Assembly: GCF_000504285.1 (NCBI RefSeq)
Contig: NZ_KI632511.1
Location: 9,654,154 to 9,718,153 of the forward strand
Length of the DNA stretch: 64,000 nt
Direction of reading: 5' to 3'
From: Actinospica robiniae DSM 44927
GTDB lineage: Bacteria; Actinomycetota; Actinomycetes; Streptomycetales; Catenulisporaceae
Position 1 is the stretch's first letter, and every line of letters begins with the position of its first letter. This document shows, piece after piece, positions 1,719 through 58,500 of the stretch. Below the pieces are notes generated by a model. That model was not told the DNA's origin. It was given only the letters and a program-made list of their open reading frames with translations, and made no database searches. The translations under genes were made by a program, and so were the position numbers.

Positions 1719-2897
1719 TTGCCGACCTCAGCGGCCGCGCGCCGGCTCGCCTCGCTCAGCGAACTCGCCTGTCTCGTCGCCGACGGCGCGGCCACCACCC
1801 GCAGCACCCTGATGAACGCCACCGGCCTGTCCCGGGCGGCGATCGCGCAACGGGTGGACCTGCTGATCGAGCGGGGCGTGCTGGTGGAATCCGGCCCGGC
1901 CGCGGTCGAACGCGGCCGCCCGCCGTTCACCCTGGACCTGGCCTCGGATCAGGTGCTGGCGGCCGGAGTCGACCTCGGCGCCACCCACGGACGCCTCGCG
2001 CTGACCACCCTGGGCGGCCGGGTGCTGGCCGAGAGCGCCCGGGAACTCGACATCAACGCCGGCCCGGACCGCATCCTGGCACTGGTGCGCGAGGACCTCG
2101 CCCGGCTGTGCGCGGAGGCCGGCCGCCCCACCGACTCCCTGCGGGCCATCGGCATCGGCGTGCCCGGGCCGGTCGAGGCGGTCACCGGGACGGTGGTGCG
2201 CCCGCCGATCATGCAGGGCTGGGACGGCAGCCGGATCCCGGCCTTCTTCGAGGACGGATTCACCGCCACGGTCCTGGTGGACAACGACGTGAACATGATG
2301 GCGTTCGGCGAGTACGTGCACCGGCGCGAATCAGAGCACTTGCTCTACATCAAGGTGGGAACCGGCATCGGCTGCGGGATAGTCTCCGGCGGCGTGCCGC
2401 ACCGCGGGGCGTCCGGCGCGGCCGGGGACATCGGGCACATCCGGCTGCCCGGGCACGACGAAGTGCCCTGCCACTGCGGCAACACCGGCTGCGTGGAGGC
2501 GGTCGCCTCCGGCTCCGCGCTGGCCGCCGCGCTGCGGGCGGAGGGCCTCGACGCCCATGGCGCCGGCGACGTGGTGCGCCTGGTCTCCGAGGGCCACCCG
2601 GTGGCCCGGCGCCAGGTCCGGCTGGCCGGGCAGCGGATCGGCGAGGTGCTGGCCTCGCTGGTCTCCTTCCACAACCCGGACACCATCGTCATCGGCGGGG
2701 TCCTCGCCCAGCTGCACGAGGACCTGCTCGCCGACATCAGGGGCGTGATCTATCGCAGGGCTCTGCCGTTGGCCACGCGCAGCCTGCGGATCGAGACCTC
2801 GGTGCTCGGCGAGCACGCGGGCGTGGTCGGCTCGGCCCGGCTGGCCGCGCGCCACCTGCTCTCGCCCGCCGGCATCGGAGACTTCATCGATCGCTGA
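1719..2897 (+). CDS. ROK family transcriptional regulator
   Basis: 392 aa. The N-terminal winged helix-turn-helix (about residues 10-65, STLMNATGLSRAAIAQRVDLL) is followed by a sugar-kinase-like ROK domain: GVDLGATHGRLAL phosphate-binding loop, NDVNMMAFGEY, TGIGCGIVSGG, and the zinc site CHCGNTGCVEAVASG. Open reading continues far upstream, but the TTG at 1719 lies just behind GGGAGGGG and gives the normal ROK length. Transcribed away from the Gfo/Idh-isomerase operon, it is the obvious candidate regulator, with a sugar (phosphate) as effector. Its 3' end overlaps the convergent DUF89 gene by 14 bp. Confidence 0.9.
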   Translation: MPTSAAARRLASLSELACLVADGAATTRSTLMNATGLSRAAIAQRVDLLIERGVLVESGPAAVERGRPPFTLDLASDQVLAAGVDLGATHGRLALTTLGGRVLAESARELDINAGPDRILALVREDLARLCAEAGRPTDSLRAIGIGVPGPVEAVTGTVVRPPIMQGWDGSRIPAFFEDGFTATVLVDNDVNMMAFGEYVHRRESEHLLYIKVGTGIGCGIVSGGVPHRGASGAAGDIGHIRLPGHDEVPCHCGNTGCVEAVASGSALAAALRAEGLDAHGAGDVVRLVSEGHPVARRQVRLAGQRIGEVLASLVSFHNPDTIVIGGVLAQLHEDLLADIRGVIYRRALPLATRSLRIETSVLGEHAGVVGSARLAARHLLSPAGIGDFIDR

Positions 2898-4056
2898 TAC
2901 CGGCGCCGCTGAACTGGATCACCGCGTGGCGCCCGCCGAATCGCCATCCGGGCTCGGCCTCGTCCAGTGTGCGCACCGTCGCGGGGTCCATCCCCACCGA
3001 CACGTCGGACTTGTACGTGCGCAGCGCGGCCACCGGGCCCGGCAGGTAGGAGGTCAGGGCACTGAAAGGCGTGTCCTCCGGCCAGAGCCGGTCGCCGACC
3101 AGGCGGCGGTAGTTCAGGTCGCCCTTGAAGATCGTCAGCCGGGCGGTGGCCACGGCGTCGAGCAGATCCTTGGGCAGCTCGTCGAAACCGAAGGGGGCGC
3201 AGAAGAACTCGGGTGCCAGGACCGTGAGTCGCCCACGCGCGCAGACGGACCGCAGCCGCGAGGCGGCGTCCGCTGCCGGGCCGGGCACGGTGCCGAGGAG
3301 CTGGAGCGCGTCCGCGAAGTCCTGGGCCGTGGCGTCGGAGACGTAGTAAGGACGAGGCTTGAGATACAGCGTCACCTCCGTGGCCCGGCCGGTGGTGAGC
3401 AGATGGTCGATGAGCAAGAGGTCGTACACGAGTTCCTCGGCCGCGTTGTCGGCGACGAGGTTGACCCGGCCCGCCTGCGCGTCGAGATGGGCGAAGAGCG
3501 CCGCGCCGTCGTCGGCGAGCACTTCCGGCACCACCGGTGCCCCGGCCACCAGCTGGAAACCGAGGTCGGCCCGGTTGCCCCACAGGCTCGCGTGCAAGGC
3601 GGCGGTGTCCCGCTCGGCCGGCGCCAGCGCCGCCGTGGAGCCGAGCCCGGCGAGCTCTTCGGCGAGCCCGGCGCCGGCCAGGCTCGCCGACTTCATCGGC
3701 CCGAACGGGTCGACGCCGCGCCAGGTCCCGGCGAAGTAGCCCGTTGCCGACAGAAGCCTGCGATGGAAGTAGCTCTCCGCCCACAGGAACGGCGCCTCGG
3801 TCCACTTGAGCCCCTGACCGAAGTACGGCGCGCCCCAGCTGTCCCACTGCGCCCGGTCCCCGGCGTCGTCCTCCGGCAGCGGGCCGAGCGTGCTGTACAG
3901 CGTCTCGTCCAGGAACGCGTCGAGCGCGGCCAACCGGTCGGGCCCGTACGGCAGCGCGGCCTTCACCTGGGCGATGACCTTCGGGTGCCGGACGTGGAAG
4001 ACGGAGTGCGGGAACGCGGCGGAGTCGGCCGCGGTGATCACGGGCGGAGTGGTCAT
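2884..4056 (-). CDS. DUF89/ARMT1-like damage-control phosphatase or methyltransferase family protein
   Basis: 390 aa. Recognised by the DUF89 motif set: LWGNRADLGF, the metal-binding LVADNAAEELVYDLLLIDHLL, and FKGDLNYRRLVGD near the C-terminus with a later TYKSDV. Family members are metal-dependent phosphatases that remove damaged sugar phosphates; the eukaryotic ARMT1 subgroup has also been described as a carboxyl methyltransferase. Length and N-terminal helical region match the ARMT1-like subgroup. It is cytoplasmic, with no signal peptide. It converges on the ROK gene with a 14-bp overlap of the two 3' ends, so no terminator can lie between them. The substrate is unknown. Confidence 0.85.
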   Translation of the reverse strand: MTTPPVITAADSAAFPHSVFHVRHPKVIAQVKAALPYGPDRLAALDAFLDETLYSTLGPLPEDDAGDRAQWDSWGAPYFGQGLKWTEAPFLWAESYFHRRLLSATGYFAGTWRGVDPFGPMKSASLAGAGLAEELAGLGSTAALAPAERDTAALHASLWGNRADLGFQLVAGAPVVPEVLADDGAALFAHLDAQAGRVNLVADNAAEELVYDLLLIDHLLTTGRATEVTLYLKPRPYYVSDATAQDFADALQLLGTVPGPAADAASRLRSVCARGRLTVLAPEFFCAPFGFDELPKDLLDAVATARLTIFKGDLNYRRLVGDRLWPEDTPFSALTSYLPGPVAALRTYKSDVSVGMDPATVRTLDEAEPGWRFGGRHAVIQFSGAGISDR

Positions 4057-4093: not shown

Positions 4094-4969
4094 TCAGAGC
4101 CCTCCGGCGCGCTGCGCGTTCGCCACGATCGTGTCGACGTAGGTGTCCCACAGCTCCTCGGGCAGGTCGTGGCCCATGCCGGGCAGGAGCAGCAGCCGCG
4201 CGTCCGGGATCGCCGCTGCGGTGGCGCGGCCGCCGCTGACGTCGATGAGCGGGTCGGCCTCGCCGTGGATCACCTGCGCCGGCACCGCGAGGGCGCGCAG
4301 CCGCTCGGTCCGGTCGGGGGAGCACAGGATCGCGGCGAGCTGGCGCGCCGAGCCCGCCGGCCGGTTGGCCCGGTCGTACGCGGCGGCCGTCGTCTCGCGC
4401 AGCTGATCGTCCGTGTGCGGATACGCCGGGGACTCGAGCACCCGCCAGGTGCGCAGCCCGCGCTCGATCGCGCTCTCGCGGTCGGCCCCGGGCGGGGCGG
4501 TCAGCGCGGCGAGGGCCGCCGGGGTGGGCTGGCCGACCTCGTGCGCGCCGGTCGTCGACATGATCGAGCACAGCGACAGCACCGCCTCGGGGTGGCGGAT
4601 CGCCAGTTCCTGCACGATCATGCCGCCCATCGACACGCCGACCACGTGCGCGGCCCGGATCCCGAGCGCGGCGAGCAGGCCGGCCGCGTCCTCGGCCATG
4701 TCCTCGAGCAGGTAGGGCGCGGCGCCGGGGTCGGTGAACAGCGCGGCGAGGTCCGGCAAACCGGCTTCGTCGAAGCCGGTCGAGAGGCCGATGTCCCGGT
4801 TGTCGTAGCGGATCACGTGGAAGCCGCGGTCGGCCAGCCGCCGGCACAGCTCCGGGTCCCAGCCCAGCAGCTGCATCCCGAGGCCCATCACCAGCAGCAG
4901 GGTGGGTGCGGCCGGGTCGCCGAAGGTCTCGTATTCGAGCTCGATCCCGTTGGCCTTGCAGCGTGGCAT
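4094..4969 (-). CDS. Alpha/beta hydrolase
   Basis: 291 aa, starting MPRCKANGIELEYETFGDP. It shows the canonical order: LLLVMGLGMQ oxyanion strand, RYDNRDIGLS, nucleophile elbow GVSMGGM, acid-region PAQVIHGEADPLIDV and catalytic histidine in LPGMGHDLPEE. This is the TAP/aclacinomycin-methylesterase-like branch of the hydrolase superfamily. The ATG at 4969 gives the normal family length; a longer in-frame extension upstream is chance reading frame. It is divergent from the GNAT gene at 5111 with a 141-bp gap. Substrate unknown. Confidence 0.88.
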   Translation of the reverse strand: MPRCKANGIELEYETFGDPAAPTLLLVMGLGMQLLGWDPELCRRLADRGFHVIRYDNRDIGLSTGFDEAGLPDLAALFTDPGAAPYLLEDMAEDAAGLLAALGIRAAHVVGVSMGGMIVQELAIRHPEAVLSLCSIMSTTGAHEVGQPTPAALAALTAPPGADRESAIERGLRTWRVLESPAYPHTDDQLRETTAAAYDRANRPAGSARQLAAILCSPDRTERLRALAVPAQVIHGEADPLIDVSGGRATAAAIPDARLLLLPGMGHDLPEELWDTYVDTIVANAQRAGGL

Positions 4970-5110
4970 AGGTGTGCTCCCGGTTCTCACTCCCGGCCCG
5001 CCGCCGGGCTGCGACGGACGCAGAGCACGGAGGATACCCCCCGCCGGGCCGGGTGGCGAGGGTGGCGGGCACGGTCGGGTACGCACGCGGCCGTCTGCGA
5101 GGATGTCCCC

Positions 5111-5698
5111 ATGCCCTCGCTCGTCACCCCGGTCATCCCCGCGGGCCGGCTCGCCCGCACCGCGCAGCCCGAGCTTCCCGTCGACGCCGATCTCCGGCTG
5201 CGGCCGTGGGCGCCCGGCGACGCCGCCGCGGTGGTGGCCGCGTACGCCGACCCGGACATCGAACGCTGGCACGCGCGCCGGGTGAAGGACGAGGCCGAGG
5301 CCGCGGGCCTGATCGACTTCTGGCGCGGCACCTGGGTCGAGGAGTCCGGCGCCAGCTGGGCGATCTCCCCGGTCGAGGGCGGCGGCGTGTTCGGCCGGAT
5401 CGCGCTGCGCGAGATATCCCTGCACGAGGGCCGGGCCGAGGTCGCGTACTGGACCGTGCCGTCCGCCCGGGGCCGGCGCGTCGCCTCCCGCGCGCTGGAC
5501 GCCGTGGTCGCCTGGGCCTTCGACGAGATCGGCTTCCACCGGCTGCGGCTGCTGCACTCGATGTCGAACGAGGCCTCCTGCCGCGTGGCCGTGGCCTCCG
5601 GCTTCGAGGCCGAGGGCGTCGAACGCAGCGCGGTGCTGCACCAGGACGGCTGGCACGACATGCACCTCCACGCCAAAATCAATACACGCATACCGTAA
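5111..5698 (+). CDS. GNAT family N-acetyltransferase (RimJ/RimL-like)
   Basis: 195 aa. It contains LRLRPWAPGDAAAVVAAYAD at the N-terminus, WAISPVEGGGVFGRIALREI, EVAYWTVPSARGRRVASRALDAVVAWAF (the acetyl-CoA pyrophosphate loop; the usual Q/R-G-x-G is partly changed to ARGRRV) and FHRLRLLHSMSNEASCRVAVASGFEAEG, a typical RimJ/RimL C-terminal half. ATG at 5111 is chosen because homology starts soon after. It ends 19 bp before fold-back element A. Such enzymes acetylate protein N-termini or small amines; the target is unknown. Confidence 0.87.
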   Translation: MPSLVTPVIPAGRLARTAQPELPVDADLRLRPWAPGDAAAVVAAYADPDIERWHARRVKDEAEAAGLIDFWRGTWVEESGASWAISPVEGGGVFGRIALREISLHEGRAEVAYWTVPSARGRRVASRALDAVVAWAFDEIGFHRLRLLHSMSNEASCRVAVASGFEAEGVERSAVLHQDGWHDMHLHAKINTRIP

Positions 5699-5717
5699 CC
5701 GGCCCGCGCGGCCTACT

Positions 5718-6130
5718 GCGGGATGACGATCGGCTGGGTGTTGGTGGGGTGTAGTGGCTTGTCGGCGGTTTGCTGGGGTTTTTCGCCTCCGGCGGGGGCC
5801 CTTCTCTCGGAGAGAGATGCCGGAGTCTATGGGGTGGTGTGGTTAGTGGGGCGGGCTGTGGTTGGGGGTGGTCGGGTGTCGGGTGTGTGCTCTCTCCTCG
5901 GTCGGTCCCCGGAGGCAATCAGGAACCTGCCGGGAGGTCAAGCGGCGGAGGTTTCCGTTGATGGTGAATCATGCATCGCGCCGCTTGACCTCCCGGCAGA
6001 ACCCTGATCGGGCTTCGCCTGCCCGACCGAGGAGAGAGCCCACCCCCTGGGGGAGTGGTGCGAGCTGCGCTCAGGCCGGGTCCCGTGCTGTGGCCCGGTC
6101 GCGCTTGATGCACGATCGTGCATCGCCGTT
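5718..6130 (+). repeat. Left inverted arm of element A (shortened)
   Basis: Complementary to 6660-7166. The block 5907-5952 (starting TCCCCGGAGGCAATCAGG) is an exact reverse complement of 6847-6892. Relative to the other three arms of the two copies, it lacks roughly 85-90 bp after about 5755, the stretch that elsewhere contains CGCTTCGCGTCGCCC and CCACCCGTTGCG. Confidence 0.75.
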
Positions 6131-6259
6131 CTGGGCTGCGCTTGTCTTCTCTACCCCTTTCAACGTCGGGGAGCGCGCCCGAGTTCCCCGGAAATATCCT
6201 GGATTTTCTTTAACCGGCAAAGGCCGGATATACGGCTTTTGTCGGTGGTTGTGTCTAGC

Positions 6260-6436
6260 ATGGAAATGTACGGGGGATCGGGACTTGCGACGGGAGGGGT
6301 GGTGGACGCGGTGGCTGGGCAGGTGGCGGCGGGGGTATGGCCGAAAACGGTGCAGGAATTGTCCTCGGCGTGCGACCGAGCCACGCGATCCTGCGCGTTG
6401 CGTGAGCTCCGGAACGAACGGACGAGGGTGATGGAG
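6260..6436 (+). pseudogene. DUF222/HNH-endonuclease-like N-terminal fragment in element A
   Basis: From ATG 6260 (or 6266) the frame reads MEMYGGSG, then DAVAGQVAAGVWPKT and ELSSACDRATRSCALREL. That pattern (Ala-rich helix, VWP, then an ELxxACDRA helix) resembles the N-terminus of actinobacterial DUF222 proteins, which normally continue for 350 or more residues to an HNH nuclease; here the similarity stops near 6436. A TTGTCGGTGG block at 6239 followed by TAGCAT at 6256 precedes it, as I recall for DUF222 genes. No SD is visible. Assignment is by eye and weak. Confidence 0.4.
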
Positions 6437-6559
6437 AATCCTTCCGCATCGTGCACGGCCGGCTTGCGGGATTCTGCTGCGAGGTCTGGGATCGGGGTCG
6501 ATCGCGCCGAGGCCGTGCAGGATCTGACATCAAGTGCGACCCGGGCACTGACCCTTCGG

Positions 6560-6692
6560 GCGGATCGAGGATCGGGATGGCCGGGTGAAGGTGATGCAGA
6601 ATCCTTCCGCATCGACCGCGACACGGGACTCGACCGTGCGGATCGCGAGTCGGGATGGCCGGATTGCGGCGATGCAGGATTCTTCCGGATCG
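6560..6692 (+). repeat. 78-bp direct repeats in the core of element A
   Basis: Two copies start at 6560 and 6638 (GCGGATCG, then TCGGGATGGCCGG) and both end in a GATGCAG(A/G)AT(C/T)CTTCCG(C/G)ATCG block. A third copy of that block lies at 6430-6451. The 78-bp period equals 26 codons, so the plus-strand frame would repeat ADRxSGWPxxGDAxxFRI. The same arrangement occurs in copy B. Confidence 0.7.
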
Positions 6693-7166
6693 AGCGCGGC
6701 CGGGCCGCGGTCCGGGACTGGGCCCGAGTGCAGCTCGCACCACTCCCTCAGGGGGTGGGTTCTCTCCTCGGTCGGGCAGGCGAAGCCCGGTCAGGGTTCT
6801 GTCGGGAGGTCAAGCGGCGCGATGCAAGATCGAGCATGAGCGGAAGCCTCCGCCGCTTGACCTCCCGGCAGGTTCCTGATTGCCTCCGGGGACCGGCCGA
6901 GGAGAGAGCACACCCCCGCAACCTCACCATCCCGAACCCCAGCCCGCCCCGCCGGCGCCAGCACCCACGCGAACCCGGCACTCTCTCCGAGGGAAGGGCC
7001 CGCGCCGGAGGCGAGATCTTGAAACCGCAGGCCGCCCCGCCAACGCAACGGGTGGGCGGGTGGTCAGACGAACCGGGCGACGCGAAGCGGCCGCCCAAAC
7101 CCCGACGACCACCCCGACCCGACAAGACACCACATCCCACCAACACCCAGCCGATCATCAATTCGC
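6660..7166 (-). repeat. Right inverted arm of element A (full length)
   Basis: Reverse complement of the left arm. It keeps the segment missing on the left (about 7005-7100) and ends with the 20-bp terminal motif and CAATTCGC at 7166. The inner part (6745-6915) can fold on itself: TCTCTCCTCGGTCGG near 6760 pairs with the CCGGCCGAGGAGAGA block ending near 6908. Confidence 0.75.
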
Positions 7167-7221
7167 GTTAGACTCTGCGCCGAATCAGTGCTCTTGTCCC
7201 GCAATGGAGCGGAGGCGGACG

Positions 7222-34342: not shown

Positions 34343-34562
34343 GGGGGCGGACGATCCGGCCGACCCGTTAGAGGGAAGGCAGGTGGGGGCGGACGATCCG
34401 GCCGACGCCCCCAGTTGGAGAGGGAAGGCAGGTGGGGCGGACGATCCGGCCGACCCGTTAGAGGGAAGGCAGGTGGGGGCGGACGATCCGGCCGACCCGT
34501 TAGAGGGAAGGCAGGTGGGGGCGGACGATCCGGCCGACGCCCCCAGTTGGAGAGGGAGGGCG
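34343..34562. repeat. Minisatellite of five 41-49-bp units upstream of the EAL gene
   Basis: Units begin GGGGGCGGACGATCCGGCCG and end GAAGGCAGGT. Two types alternate: a 42-bp type containing CCCGTTAGAG (34343, 34434 with one base lost, 34475) and a 49-bp type containing CCCCCAGTTGGAG (34385, 34517). Together with flanks this fills the 317 bp between the EAL start and the GH5 stop. GGCGGACCGTCCGCC at 34559-34573, close behind the GH5 stop, can form a hairpin. No spacers of CRISPR type are present. Confidence 0.9.
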
Positions 34563-54060: not shown

Positions 54061-55137
54061 ATGGCGCTCGGAAGGCGAAGCGGCGGCGGGGGCTGGATCC
54101 GGATATCAGAGGCCGTCGCATGGGTGGCCGCCGGGGCGCTGCTGCTCGCCGGTTGCTCGAGCGGGAACTCCGGCGGCGGGTCGGGCGGCGGTTTCGGCGG
54201 ACTGTCGGGCGGGGGAGCGGGCGGGGTGCCGACGACGATCGCGCAGGCGCTGGCTCAGCTGCCCGCCACCTCCTGGGACACCGACTACGCCGAGTTCGGC
54301 GACGTCAAGCAGCTGGTCGCGCTCGACGGCGGCGAGAAGGCGAACGGGCCGCTCCTCGCCTACGTCGGCCTCGGCGAGTCCTCCTTCGCCGCGCAGACCT
54401 CCTTGTCGGACAGCCCCCTCGGCTTCGACCCGCTGGCGGTGACCGCCGCGGCCGCCGTCGGCAACGAGCCGCATCAGATCACCGTGGACTACAACGACTT
54501 CGACGCCTCCGCGGTCGGCTCGAAGCTCTCCAAGGAGGGCTTCAAGCAGCACGGCACGGCCGACGGCGGCGACCTGTGGAGCATCGGCGGCGACGACGAG
54601 GCGAATGTCGACAATCCGACCGGCTTGCCGAACCTCAATGTCCTGCTGGTCTCCTCGTCCCGGATCACGCTGGGCGGATCGAGCGCGGACGTGAAGGCGA
54701 TCGCTGGCCCGGTGAGCACGCCGCTGTCCGGCGGCGCCATGGGCGCGGTGGCCGACTGCCTCGGGCCCGCACTGGCCGCGATGATCGGACCGCGGACGGG
54801 CGGCACCGCGAACGCGTCACTGCTCGGCATCGGCCTGCTTGCCCCGAGCGCCGCGGACGCGAGCGAAGAGCTCTGCGTCCAGGTGCCCAGTGCCGCGCAG
54901 GCCGCCGCCATGGCGGCGACCTGGAAGACGCAGATCGGCACCGGCCTCTCCGAGCGGATCAAGGCCCCGTGGTCGACCCTGCTGACGGATCCCCAAGCCA
55001 CGGTTCTGAGCCCGGTCAACGGCGTCACCACGGTCCGGCTGACGGCCAAGCCCGCGTCCGGCGCGCACCTGGGCGCGCTGCTGCAGACCTACTTCTCCGC
55101 CTCCAGCGACATGGACGGACTCCTCGGCCAGTCATGA
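54061..55137 (+). CDS. Lipoprotein of unknown function
   Basis: 358 aa. Signal with lipobox LLLAGCSSGNSGGG, a Gly-rich stretch, then an alpha/beta body (AQALAQLPATSWDTDYAEFGDVKQLVALDGG, HQITVDYNDFDASAVGSKLSKEGFKQHG, GGAMGAVADCLGPALAAMIGP). No family recognised; layout fits a surface substrate-binding or wall lipoprotein. ATG 54061 has GGAGGCGGCC upstream. It ends 53 bp before fold-back element B. Confidence 0.75.
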   Translation: MALGRRSGGGGWIRISEAVAWVAAGALLLAGCSSGNSGGGSGGGFGGLSGGGAGGVPTTIAQALAQLPATSWDTDYAEFGDVKQLVALDGGEKANGPLLAYVGLGESSFAAQTSLSDSPLGFDPLAVTAAAAVGNEPHQITVDYNDFDASAVGSKLSKEGFKQHGTADGGDLWSIGGDDEANVDNPTGLPNLNVLLVSSSRITLGGSSADVKAIAGPVSTPLSGGAMGAVADCLGPALAAMIGPRTGGTANASLLGIGLLAPSAADASEELCVQVPSAAQAAAMAATWKTQIGTGLSERIKAPWSTLLTDPQATVLSPVNGVTTVRLTAKPASGAHLGALLQTYFSASSDMDGLLGQS

Positions 55138-55190
55138 CCCGCAGGGCCCGCCGCCTGCCAGCGGCGGGCCCCGCGTCCGCATAACCTATT

Positions 55191-56711
55191 GCGATTTGAT
55201 GATCGGCTGGGTGTTGGTGGGGCGTGGGATGACGTGTCGGGTCAGGGTGTGGGCTGCCGCTTCGCGTCGCCCTGTTTCGTCTGTCCACCCGCCCACCCGT
55301 TGCGTGGGTGGGGTGGGCTGGGGTTTCAAGATTTCGCCTCCGGCGGGGGCCCTTCTCTCGGAGAGAGTGCCGAGGCTCCGTGGTTGCCGGCGTGGCAGGG
55401 CGGCCTGGGGTTCGGGGTGGTCGGGTGCCGGGGGTGTGCTCTCTCCTCGGTCGGTCCCCGGAGGCAATCAGGAACCTGCCGGGAGCTCAAGCGGCGGTGG
55501 CCTGAGCTGATGGCCGATTTTGCATGGCGCCGCTTGACCTCCCGGCAGGTCCCTGATGGGGCTTCGCCTGCCCGACCGAGGAGAGAGCCCACCCCTTGAG
55601 GTCCGGTGCGAGCTGCGCTCCGGCCGAGTCCCGGCCTGTGGCCCGGTCGCGCTTGATGCACGATCATGCATCGCCGTTCTGGGCTGCGCTTCTCTTCTCT
55701 ACCCCTTTCAACGTCGGGGAGCGCGCCCGAGTTCCCCGGAAATATCCTGGATTTTCTTTAACCGGCAAAGGCCGGATACGCGGCTTTTGTCGGTGGTGGT
55801 GTCTAGCATGGAAATGTACGGGGGATCGGGACTTGCGACGGGAGGGGTGGTGGACGCGGTGGCTGGGCAGGCGGCGGCGGGGGTATGGCCGAAAACGGTG
55901 CAGGAATTGTCCTCGGCGTGCGACCGTGCCGCGCGATCTTGCGCGTTGCGTGAGCTCCGGGCCGATCGGACCAGGGTGATGGAGAATCCTTCCGCATCGT
56001 GCACGGCCGGCCTGCGGGATTCTGCCGCGAGATCCGGGATCGGGGTCGATCGCGCCGAGGCCGTGCAGGATCCGACATCAAGGGCGACCCGGGCGCCGAC
56101 CCTTCGGGCGGATCGAGGATCGGGATGGCCGGGTCAAGGTGATGCAGAATCCTTCCGCATCGACCGCGACACGGGACTCGACCGCGCGGATCGAGAGTCG
56201 GGATGGCCGGATTACGGCGATGCAGGATTCTTCCGGATCGAGCGCGGCCGGGCCACCGGCCGGGACCCGGGCCCGAGCGCAGCTCGCACCGGACCTCAGG
56301 GGGTGGGCTCTCTCCTCGGTCGGGCAGGCGAAGCCCGATCAGGGTTCTGCCGGGAGGTCAAGCGGCGCGATGCAGGATCGAGCATGAGCGGAAGCCTCCG
56401 CCGCTTGATCTCCCGGCAGGTTCCTGATTGCCTCCGGGGACCGGCCGAGGAGAGACCACACCCCCGCAACCTCACCATCCCGGACCTCAGCCCGCCCCGC
56501 TAACGCCAGCACCCCACAGACCCCGGCACTCTCCGAGGCAAAGGCCCCCGCCGGAGGCGAGATCTTGAAACCGCAGCTCGCCCGCGAACGCAACGGGTGG
56601 GTGGGTGGTCAGATGAGACGGGCGACGCGAAGCAGCCGCCCACACCCAGACAACCACCTCGACCCGACCGGCCACCACCTCCCACCAACACTCAGCCGAT
56701 CATCAAATCGC
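55191..56711 (+). mobile_element. Fold-back element copy B
   Basis: The same architecture and orientation as copy A, 49.5 kb away. Ends are inverted: GCGATTTGATGATCGGCTGG at 55191 and its complement ending at 56711. Arms of about 0.4-0.5 kb flank a core that differs from copy A by only scattered substitutions, with no indel over ~400 bp around 55800-56200. The 110 bp before the DUF222-like start is almost identical in both. It lies between a lipoprotein gene and leuA; its right end contains the last six codons and stop of leuA. No transposase. Confidence 0.8.
55808..55984 (+). pseudogene. DUF222/HNH-like N-terminal fragment in element B
   Basis: Same frame and motifs as 6260-6436 (DAVAGQAAAGVWPKT, ELSSACDRAARSCALREL). 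Between the copies, many differences fall in third codon positions and no frame is broken, weak support for past or present translation. Identification with DUF222 is by eye. Confidence 0.4.
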
Positions 56712-58500
56712 TCGACGCGCCCGCCCGGTTCACCGCGCTCAGCACCGCGCGCACCGAGGCCGCGAGCACGGAGGTGTCCAGCCCGACACCCCAGCCGACC
56801 ACGCCGTCGATGCGGCACTGGGCGTAGCACACCGCCGCGCTGTCCAGGCCGGAATCGACCGCGTGCTCGACGTACGCCAGCACGTCCACCTTCGGGCCGA
56901 AGTCGGCCAGGGCCCTGATGAACGCGGAGAGCGGACCATTGCCAGTGCCGCGGTATTCGAGCTCTTCCTCCGAATCAGCGTTCGACAGGAAGCAGACGCA
57001 CTCATGCGCGCCCGGCGCGATCTCGTTGCTGCTCCAGCGGTTCAGCTTCACCGCGCCGGCCGTGCCGGGGGCGATGTAGGTCGCGGTGAACAGCGCGTAC
57101 AGGTCCTCGGCCGTCGCCTCCGTGCCGCTGGCGTCAGTGGTCTGCTGTACCAGGGCCGAGAACTCCGGCTGCAGCGCCCGCGGCAGGTCCAGGCCGTACT
57201 CGGTCTGCAGCAGGTAGGCGACGCCGCCCTTGCCGGACTGGCTGTTGACGCGGATCACCGCCTCGTAGCCGCGGCCCACATCGGCCGGGTCGATCGGCAG
57301 GTACGGCACGTTCCACGGGTGCTCGTGCTCCGGCACTCCGGCCTGGGCGGCCTGTGCGGCGTGGTGCGCCATGCCCTTCTTGATCGCGTCCTGATGCGTG
57401 CCGGAGAACGCGGTGTAGACCAGGTCGCCGACGTACGGGTGGCGGATGTGCACCGGCAGCCGGTTGCAGTGCTCGACGACGCGGCGGATCTCGTCGATGT
57501 CGGAGAAGTCGATCATCGGGTCCACCCCCTGCGCATGCAGGTTCAGGCCCAGGGTGACCAGGTCCACGTTGCCGGTGCGCTCGCCGTTGCCGAACAGGCA
57601 GCCCTCCACCCGCTGCGCGCCCGCCAGCACGGCCAGTTCGGCGCAGGCCACGCCGGTGCCCCGATCGTTGTGCGGGTGCACGGACAGGATCACCGAGTCG
57701 CGCCGGGCCAGATGCCGGTGCATGTACTCGATCTGGTCGGCGTAGACGTTCGGGCTGGCGATCTCCACCGTGGCCGGCAGGTTGTGCACCACCGGGCGGT
57801 CCGGGCTCGCGTCCCACAGCTCGGTCAGAGCGTCGCAGACCTCGAGGACGTAGTCGGGCTCGGTCAGGTTGAAAACCTCGGGCGAGAACTGCAGGCGCAC
57901 CGGGCCGGCCTGGTGCCGGTCGGCCAGCTGGCCCACCAGTTCGGCGTTGCGCAGGATCAGCTGGTGCAGCCCCGCGCGGTCGTAACCGAGCACCACGTTC
58001 CGCCAGGTCGGCGCGGTCGCGGTGTACATGTGCACCATCGCGCGCGGCAGACCCTCGATCGAGGCGAAGGTGCGCTCGATCAGATCCGGCTTGGCCGGGG
58101 TGAAGACGACCACCGTGACGTCGTCGGGCAGGGTGCCGGAGGTGGCCAGGTGCCGGACGAAGTCGTAGTCGGTCTGGCTCGCGGACGGGTAGCCGACCTC
58201 GATCTCCTTGTAGCCCATGGCGAGCATCAGGTCGAACATGCGCCGCTTGCGCGGGGTGTCCATGGGTTCGGCCAGGGCCTGGTTGCCGTCGCGCAGGTCG
58301 ACCGGCACCCACAGCGGCGCGGCGGTCAGCCGCCGGGCGGGCCAGGCCCGGTCGGTCAGCGGTACGGAGACCTTGTCGTAGGCGGATCGGTAGCGGTGGC
58401 TCGGCATCGCGCCGGGGCGTTGCGGGTTCCAGGCGGGCGCGTCCGGCGGTACCGGACCGGACGGGGCGTGCAGCGTCGGGAACGAGGAGGGGGCAGACAT
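56692..58500 (-). CDS. leuA: 2-isopropylmalate synthase
   Basis: 602 aa. HMGL-like TIM barrel with [18 protein letters not shown] (metal/substrate Arg-Asp), [37 protein letters not shown] and [18 protein letters not shown], and a C-terminal leucine-sensing domain (~450-600). It catalyses the first committed step of leucine synthesis, acetyl-CoA plus 2-oxoisovalerate. The C-terminus SDLMIG and the TGA stop lie in the terminal repeat of element B. A leucine-rich leader peptide and attenuator lie upstream. Confidence 0.96.

Follow-up and report, generated by a model that had tools for sequence, protein, structure and literature searches.

A repeat family often found in stop codons and the repeat-derived end of leuA in Actinospica robiniae

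The 3' end of leuA and element B

How did a gene of primary metabolism come to end inside a repeated element? The window analyzed here, a stretch of 64,000 nucleotides of Actinospica robiniae DSM 44927 (contig NZ_KI632511.1, positions 9,654,154 to 9,718,153), contains leuA (56692-58500, minus strand), assigned to 2-isopropylmalate synthase by similarity to LeuA relatives. On its own strand, the gene ends GGC GCG TCG AGC GAT TTG ATG ATC GGC TGA. Its present stop codon, TGA (56692-56694, minus strand), lies 21 nt inside the frame of an element designated B, and the codons SDLMIG before it (AGC to GGC, 56695-56712, minus strand) are derived from the right terminal repeat of that element. A preliminary description of this locus had placed these codons and the stop in the repeat, and reading the minus-strand codons bore this out; the new part of leuA, however, begins one codon earlier than described, at TCG (56713-56715, minus strand). 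Ends of the repeat family show TAG or TAA where leuA has this TCG, and joining the flanks of the element gives TAG, so that the codon probably occupies the old stop position. The earlier estimate that leuA would gain about 64 residues if the TGA were TGG was also accurate, with the frame open for 63 residues past the TGA.

Element B (55189-56713) is a family copy of ∼1.5 kb with terminal inverted repeat (TIR) arms at 55191-55677 and 56214-56711. The terminal repeat had been recognized in the preliminary description, but the family consensus sets the outer limit farther out, at a TA dinucleotide. The left TA (55187-55188, plus strand, in the context C-TA-TT-GCGA) is intact as target duplication; the place of the right TA (56714-56715, minus strand) now reads GA on the plus strand and TC on the leuA strand. 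B has the features of a nonautonomous TIR element (miniature inverted-repeat transposable element [MITE]), namely TIRs, a target duplication, many copies, and no transposase gene: its one open reading frame tested matched no family, and no gene was recognized in it. A typical MITE is shorter than the ∼1.5 kb of B. The left TIR includes a hairpin region (55415-55587) that is common to other subfamilies. On the far side of B lies a convergent, lipoprotein-like gene (54061-55137, plus strand), which also adjoins leuA in Actinospica durhamensis. Between the stop of this gene and B, by eye, is a perfect-looking GC-rich hairpin (55144-55171), perhaps a terminator. The window holds a second family copy, element A (5716-7168), which is intergenic at C-TA-G. 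Tandem-like repeats with units of ∼42 to 87 nt (GGGGGCGGACGATCCGGCCGACC...) were seen elsewhere in the window, at 34343-34561.

Termini and target sites across the family

Copies were found by DNA search with the elements of the window against their own 9.92-Mb, one-contig genome. The terminus pattern, allowing at most 3 mismatches, gave 51 forward and 51 reverse matches, versus 0 for the reversed control. Eighty loci were selected from the match lists and fetched, leaving out chance-looking matches, and family termini were present at 73 of them, though some weaker single ends may be chance. We anchored 122 termini, with the consensus Y-TA-NN-GCGANTTGATGATCGGCTG[A/G]GTG; 116 scored at least 21 of 28, and the 6 below 21 were dropped. 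The variable base [A/G] of this consensus is the one that makes the TGA of leuA. Among the four termini of the window, three read CTGGGTG and only the right end of B reads CTGAGTG, as had been described, but this singularity does not extend to the genome, where 70 of the 116 termini carry the A. By end type, the A and G counts were 29 and 17 for purine-type ends, 24 and 18 for pyrimidine-type ends, and 17 and 11 for the remaining termini. Termini beside the stop of a gene showed no excess (13 A and 11 G, or 13/24 A, versus 57 A and 35 G for the remainder). The TGA-making A is a common family variant that did not originate at leuA. Selection of the repeat TGA as a fallback stop was also considered; the terminus base counts show no sign of it.

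The target was read from the 43 of the 73 terminus-bearing loci that were two-ended, setting aside 30 with one usable end. With TA accepted within 2 nt of its expected place, 32 of the 43 copies had TA at both ends; the other 11, which include B and copy L213, lacked it at one end and were excluded from the 32. On joining the flanks at one TA, YTAR was rebuilt in 32/32 cases (CTAG in 22, CTAA in 6, TTAG in 3, and TTAA in 1). The family inserts at YTAR and duplicates TA. A longer duplication, of TAR or YTAR, was ruled out by 8 copies in which the purine end starts with A where the target has G, and the duplication is therefore TA alone.

Of the 32 rebuilt sites, half (16) coincide with the in-frame stop codon of an adjacent gene; 14 are intergenic and 2 lie inside a predicted gene. 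Genes were called with our own simple codon-usage finder, whose training set was 400 kb drawn from 20 locations in this genome, and the stop-codon test and its control used one finder setting and the same 800-nt flanks. In the 400 kb, by comparison, stop codons made up 19 of 119 CTAG sites and 33 of 288 YTAR sites (Fisher P = 1.4 × 10^-4 and 8.8 × 10^-7, respectively; 2.6 × 10^-4 and 2.4 × 10^-6 with intragenic sites left out). Pfam domains were present in 13 of the 16 stop-hit genes, those at L168, L176, and L196 being without a Pfam match. In all 16 stop-codon copies, the purine-type end faces the gene, so that TA plus the first base of the element reads TAG or TAA; under an even split, such uniformity has a chance of ∼1.5 × 10^-5. 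Since sites were classified from the joined flanks, without the element, the orientation finding involves no circularity. Four of the 16 genes now have a stop other than the rebuilt original, and the last stop base therefore comes from the element. Selection against other sites and against the stop-losing orientation may account for both patterns, in part or in full. We consider this family-wide habit of sitting in stop codons more interesting than the leuA observation that led to it.

History of the leuA end

At leuA, the joined flanks plus TA read GTG AAC CGG GCG GGC GCG TAG, in frame. The right TA of B is lost, and this site therefore rests on one intact TA. It is GTAG rather than YTAG, unlike all 32 copies with TA at both ends, and reflects either an atypical target or a later synonymous change. 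We propose that leuA most likely once ended ...NRAGA-TAG and that the element would have struck this stop at its TA. The purine-starting end together with TA would have rebuilt the stop and left the host protein unchanged. The rebuilt TAG would later have become TCG, perhaps with a change of the preceding base as well, and translation would then have entered the repeat and ended at the TGA of GGCTGA 21 nt in, adding SSDLMIG. With TCG at the probable old stop position, translation continues as far as a TGA that the repeat already contained; the insertion point fixes the frame TAN-NGC-GAN-TTG-ATG-ATC-GGC-TGR, so that decay of the first stop leads to a TGA at +21 in copies with the A variant. The decisive change at leuA would be the loss of the rebuilt stop, exposing this TGA. 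We give a probability of about three in four to this reading as a whole: that B is a nonautonomous copy of a YTAR-targeting, TA-duplicating family which hit the leuA stop, that the rebuilt TAG decayed to TCG, and that the repeat TGA is now used.

Among the best 80 of 570 LeuA homologues (named genomes; L111 to L130 were left out, many being read on the wrong strand), C termini end from −2 to +17 residues around NRAGA, so the 7-residue tail of leuA falls within natural variation. The tail is presumably tolerated rather than useful. None of these 80 ends in SDLMIG, which answers the comparison of C termini proposed in the preliminary description. The downstream DNA, also proposed for comparison, gave a partial answer: the A. 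durhamensis locus lacks the element, and ∼11 nt (by eye) separate leuA from the convergent gene, but no exact empty site was found in that comparison, because leuA there ends NRAAVVASS-TAA, four codons beyond the proposed NRAGA, and the intergenic sequence is unmatched.

A parallel comes from copy L179, where a 2OG-Fe(II) oxygenase gene (PF03171) ends ...AASVAL-GAA-ACC-GAG-TCG-ATG-ACC-GGC-TGA (ETESMTG-TGA), at the same repeat position as the leuA stop. Its A. durhamensis ortholog (88% identical) ends ...AASVAL-TGA, where the element starts. L179 has the same history as leuA, with the old stop position seen directly through the ortholog. A third candidate user of the repeat TGA, L157-minus, was dropped since the gene adjoining that end is oriented away from the element. 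At the right ends of L195 and L213 and the left end of L181, predicted genes in another frame stop 10 nt inside the repeat, so the element may supply the ends of further genes as well.

The preliminary description had explained the leuA end by insertion of the element at the 3' end of the gene, followed by a G-to-A change that arose or was selected there. The insertion is supported, and the stop and last residues are repeat derived. A stop-creating change at leuA itself is quite improbable: the right end of B is the sole A-bearing terminus of the window, but A is the majority base of the family (70/116) and shows no excess beside gene stops (13 A, 11 G). The observation at leuA was right and its cause misplaced. 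Alternatively, the insertion may have truncated the leuA coding sequence, the in-frame TAG being fortuitous and the repeat TGA being taken at once. The four additional codons of the A. durhamensis gene and the departure of the rebuilt site from YTAR would fit such an event; we nevertheless regard it as unlikely given that the site is a stop codon in 16/32 copies, that the frame is as expected for insertion into a stop codon, and that L179 and its ortholog document the stop-codon route.

Two further explanations were weighed. In one, the leuA end is older and the element simply abuts it, in line with the variability of LeuA tails (−2 to +17 residues around NRAGA); this is scarcely credible when 0 of the best 80 of 570 homologues end in SDLMIG and the letters of the tail are those of the repeat consensus. 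In the other, a sequencing error conceals a true stop at 56713-56715 and leuA is unchanged. TCG and TAG differ by one base, but the genome is a single contig, ends that lack TA are frequent (11 of 43 two-ended copies), and L179 would require a second error of the same kind, all of which makes such an error very improbable. The reading we retain is insertion into the leuA stop followed by decay of the rebuilt TAG.

Longer copies, DUF222-HNH genes, and known systems

The copies of the family have no DDE transposase gene in common. Instead, an open HNH endonuclease gene, 87 to 94% identical to P0001, occurs between family-type repeats at five places, in copies of 2.6 kb (8327806, 9629576, 263678, 8807408, and 1106017). 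The repeats are TIRs of 489 to 571 nt at four of these places and a 196-nt match at the fifth. Pairwise dN/dS of the HNH genes ranges from 0.15 to 0.28, and three further copies are broken. A predicted gene with TAG or TAA at the left junction was found at three of the five 2.6-kb copies (L213, L288, and L290) and not at L289 or L291. More divergent HNH proteins (40 to 45% identical) have inverted repeats of their own, of 181 to 375 nt, at L324, L325, L327, and L328 and, in a sister species, at L281; L284 had none within its fetched stretch, which begins at a contig end. The repeats of L325 (G000:C1:8729000-8734500) are 97.7% identical to each other and those of L327 are 98.3% identical, and these copies may therefore be recent. 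For L328, the rebuilt site is T-TA-G, where a predicted gene has its in-frame TAG. The repeats of the divergent subfamilies share with B the hairpin region, which in B, as single-stranded DNA, folds far better than its shuffles (z = −8.15).

All 11 aligned proteins matched HNH and 7 of the 11 matched DUF222, with P0001 matching HNH only. When P0001 was searched against 396 genomes of the phylum, 130 had matches, most of them confined to the HNH end. The modeled structure of the HNH protein (mean pLDDT, 71) matched no PDB entry at an E value of ≤0.001. Co-occurrence and purifying selection suggest that the HNH protein moves these elements, and because the longer copies carry DUF222-HNH genes and share no DDE transposase, the mechanism of mobility may be undescribed. 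We tentatively raise the possibility, which we hold at less than even odds, that a class of transposable elements without DDE enzymes is mobilized by DUF222-HNH proteins. Such elements would have long TIRs that each hold a ∼170-nt hairpin, would insert at YTAR and duplicate TA, and would truly prefer stop codons, with an end base that rebuilds the stop and an in-frame TGA seven codons in as a possible fallback. The divergent HNH subfamilies (the L213 type, L325, L327/L328, L324, and L281) appear to have this layout in common, and the site of L328 is likewise a stop codon.

Other transposases were considered as the mother enzyme. Family copies of 3 to 7 kb (L152 to L162) hold other insertion sequences (IS), of the IS110, Mutator, IS3, IS4, and DUF772 types; these are mutually unrelated, none is common to all of these copies, and they are read as later insertions. 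Other IS thus seem to use the family element as a landing site. Within L161, positions 2556-3656 and 4111-5201 form an inverted repeat of 1.1 kb, 98% identical, with a 160-amino-acid open frame without a Pfam match in each arm. IS630 elements prefer CTAG, and an IS630 of this genome also sits in C-TA-G. The family resembles IS630/Tc1-mariner elements in its TA target and TA duplication, found in 32/32 copies with TA at both ends, but its TIRs are ∼490 nt and its ends are unrelated to the one IS630 type of this genome compared end to end; since the ends do not match, IS630 was rejected as the mother element. Full-length copies had no DDE_3-type transposase, the 2.6-kb copies carrying HNH instead. 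PF13358 occurs at five places in the genome, only one of them (L224) inside a family copy, where it belongs to a separate IS with an identical copy elsewhere; the other four loci were unmatched to A or B.

TA targeting and duplication are shared with MITEs such as RUP, a TA-targeting MITE according to the Delihas review (PMC2229807). MITEs fused to genes, as described there, likewise bring repeat sequence into protein-coding genes. In the Actinospica family, unlike those fusions, insertion occurs in the stop codon, which the element ends rebuild. Nothing on insertion of such elements into stop codons appeared in the titles and abstract openings of the papers listed in literature searches. Some integrative elements also restore the 3' end of the gene they target; these rely on a recombinase and, as a rule, on a single fixed gene. 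They resemble the present family in that the gene end is rebuilt from element DNA, but the Actinospica elements hit many unrelated genes at a 4-nt site. Multicopy actinobacterial repeats tied to DUF222-HNH genes include the REP13E12 repeats of mycobacteria, REP13E12/HNH/DUF222 being named as a repetitive sequence in PMC10589994. The Actinospica proteins resemble that group in their matches to HNH (11/11) and DUF222 (7/11). To our knowledge, neither long TIRs nor TA duplication nor stop-codon sites have been reported for REP13E12.

By landing in stop codons and rebuilding them, a mobile element has a simple means of multiplying with little harm where genes are dense and GC content is high. Decay of a rebuilt stop then adds a few element-derived codons to an enzyme of primary metabolism. 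These observations also tie DUF222-HNH genes, which are common in actinobacteria but have an unclear role, to an element whose ends, target, and duplication are defined, and such a defined element makes their part in mobility testable.
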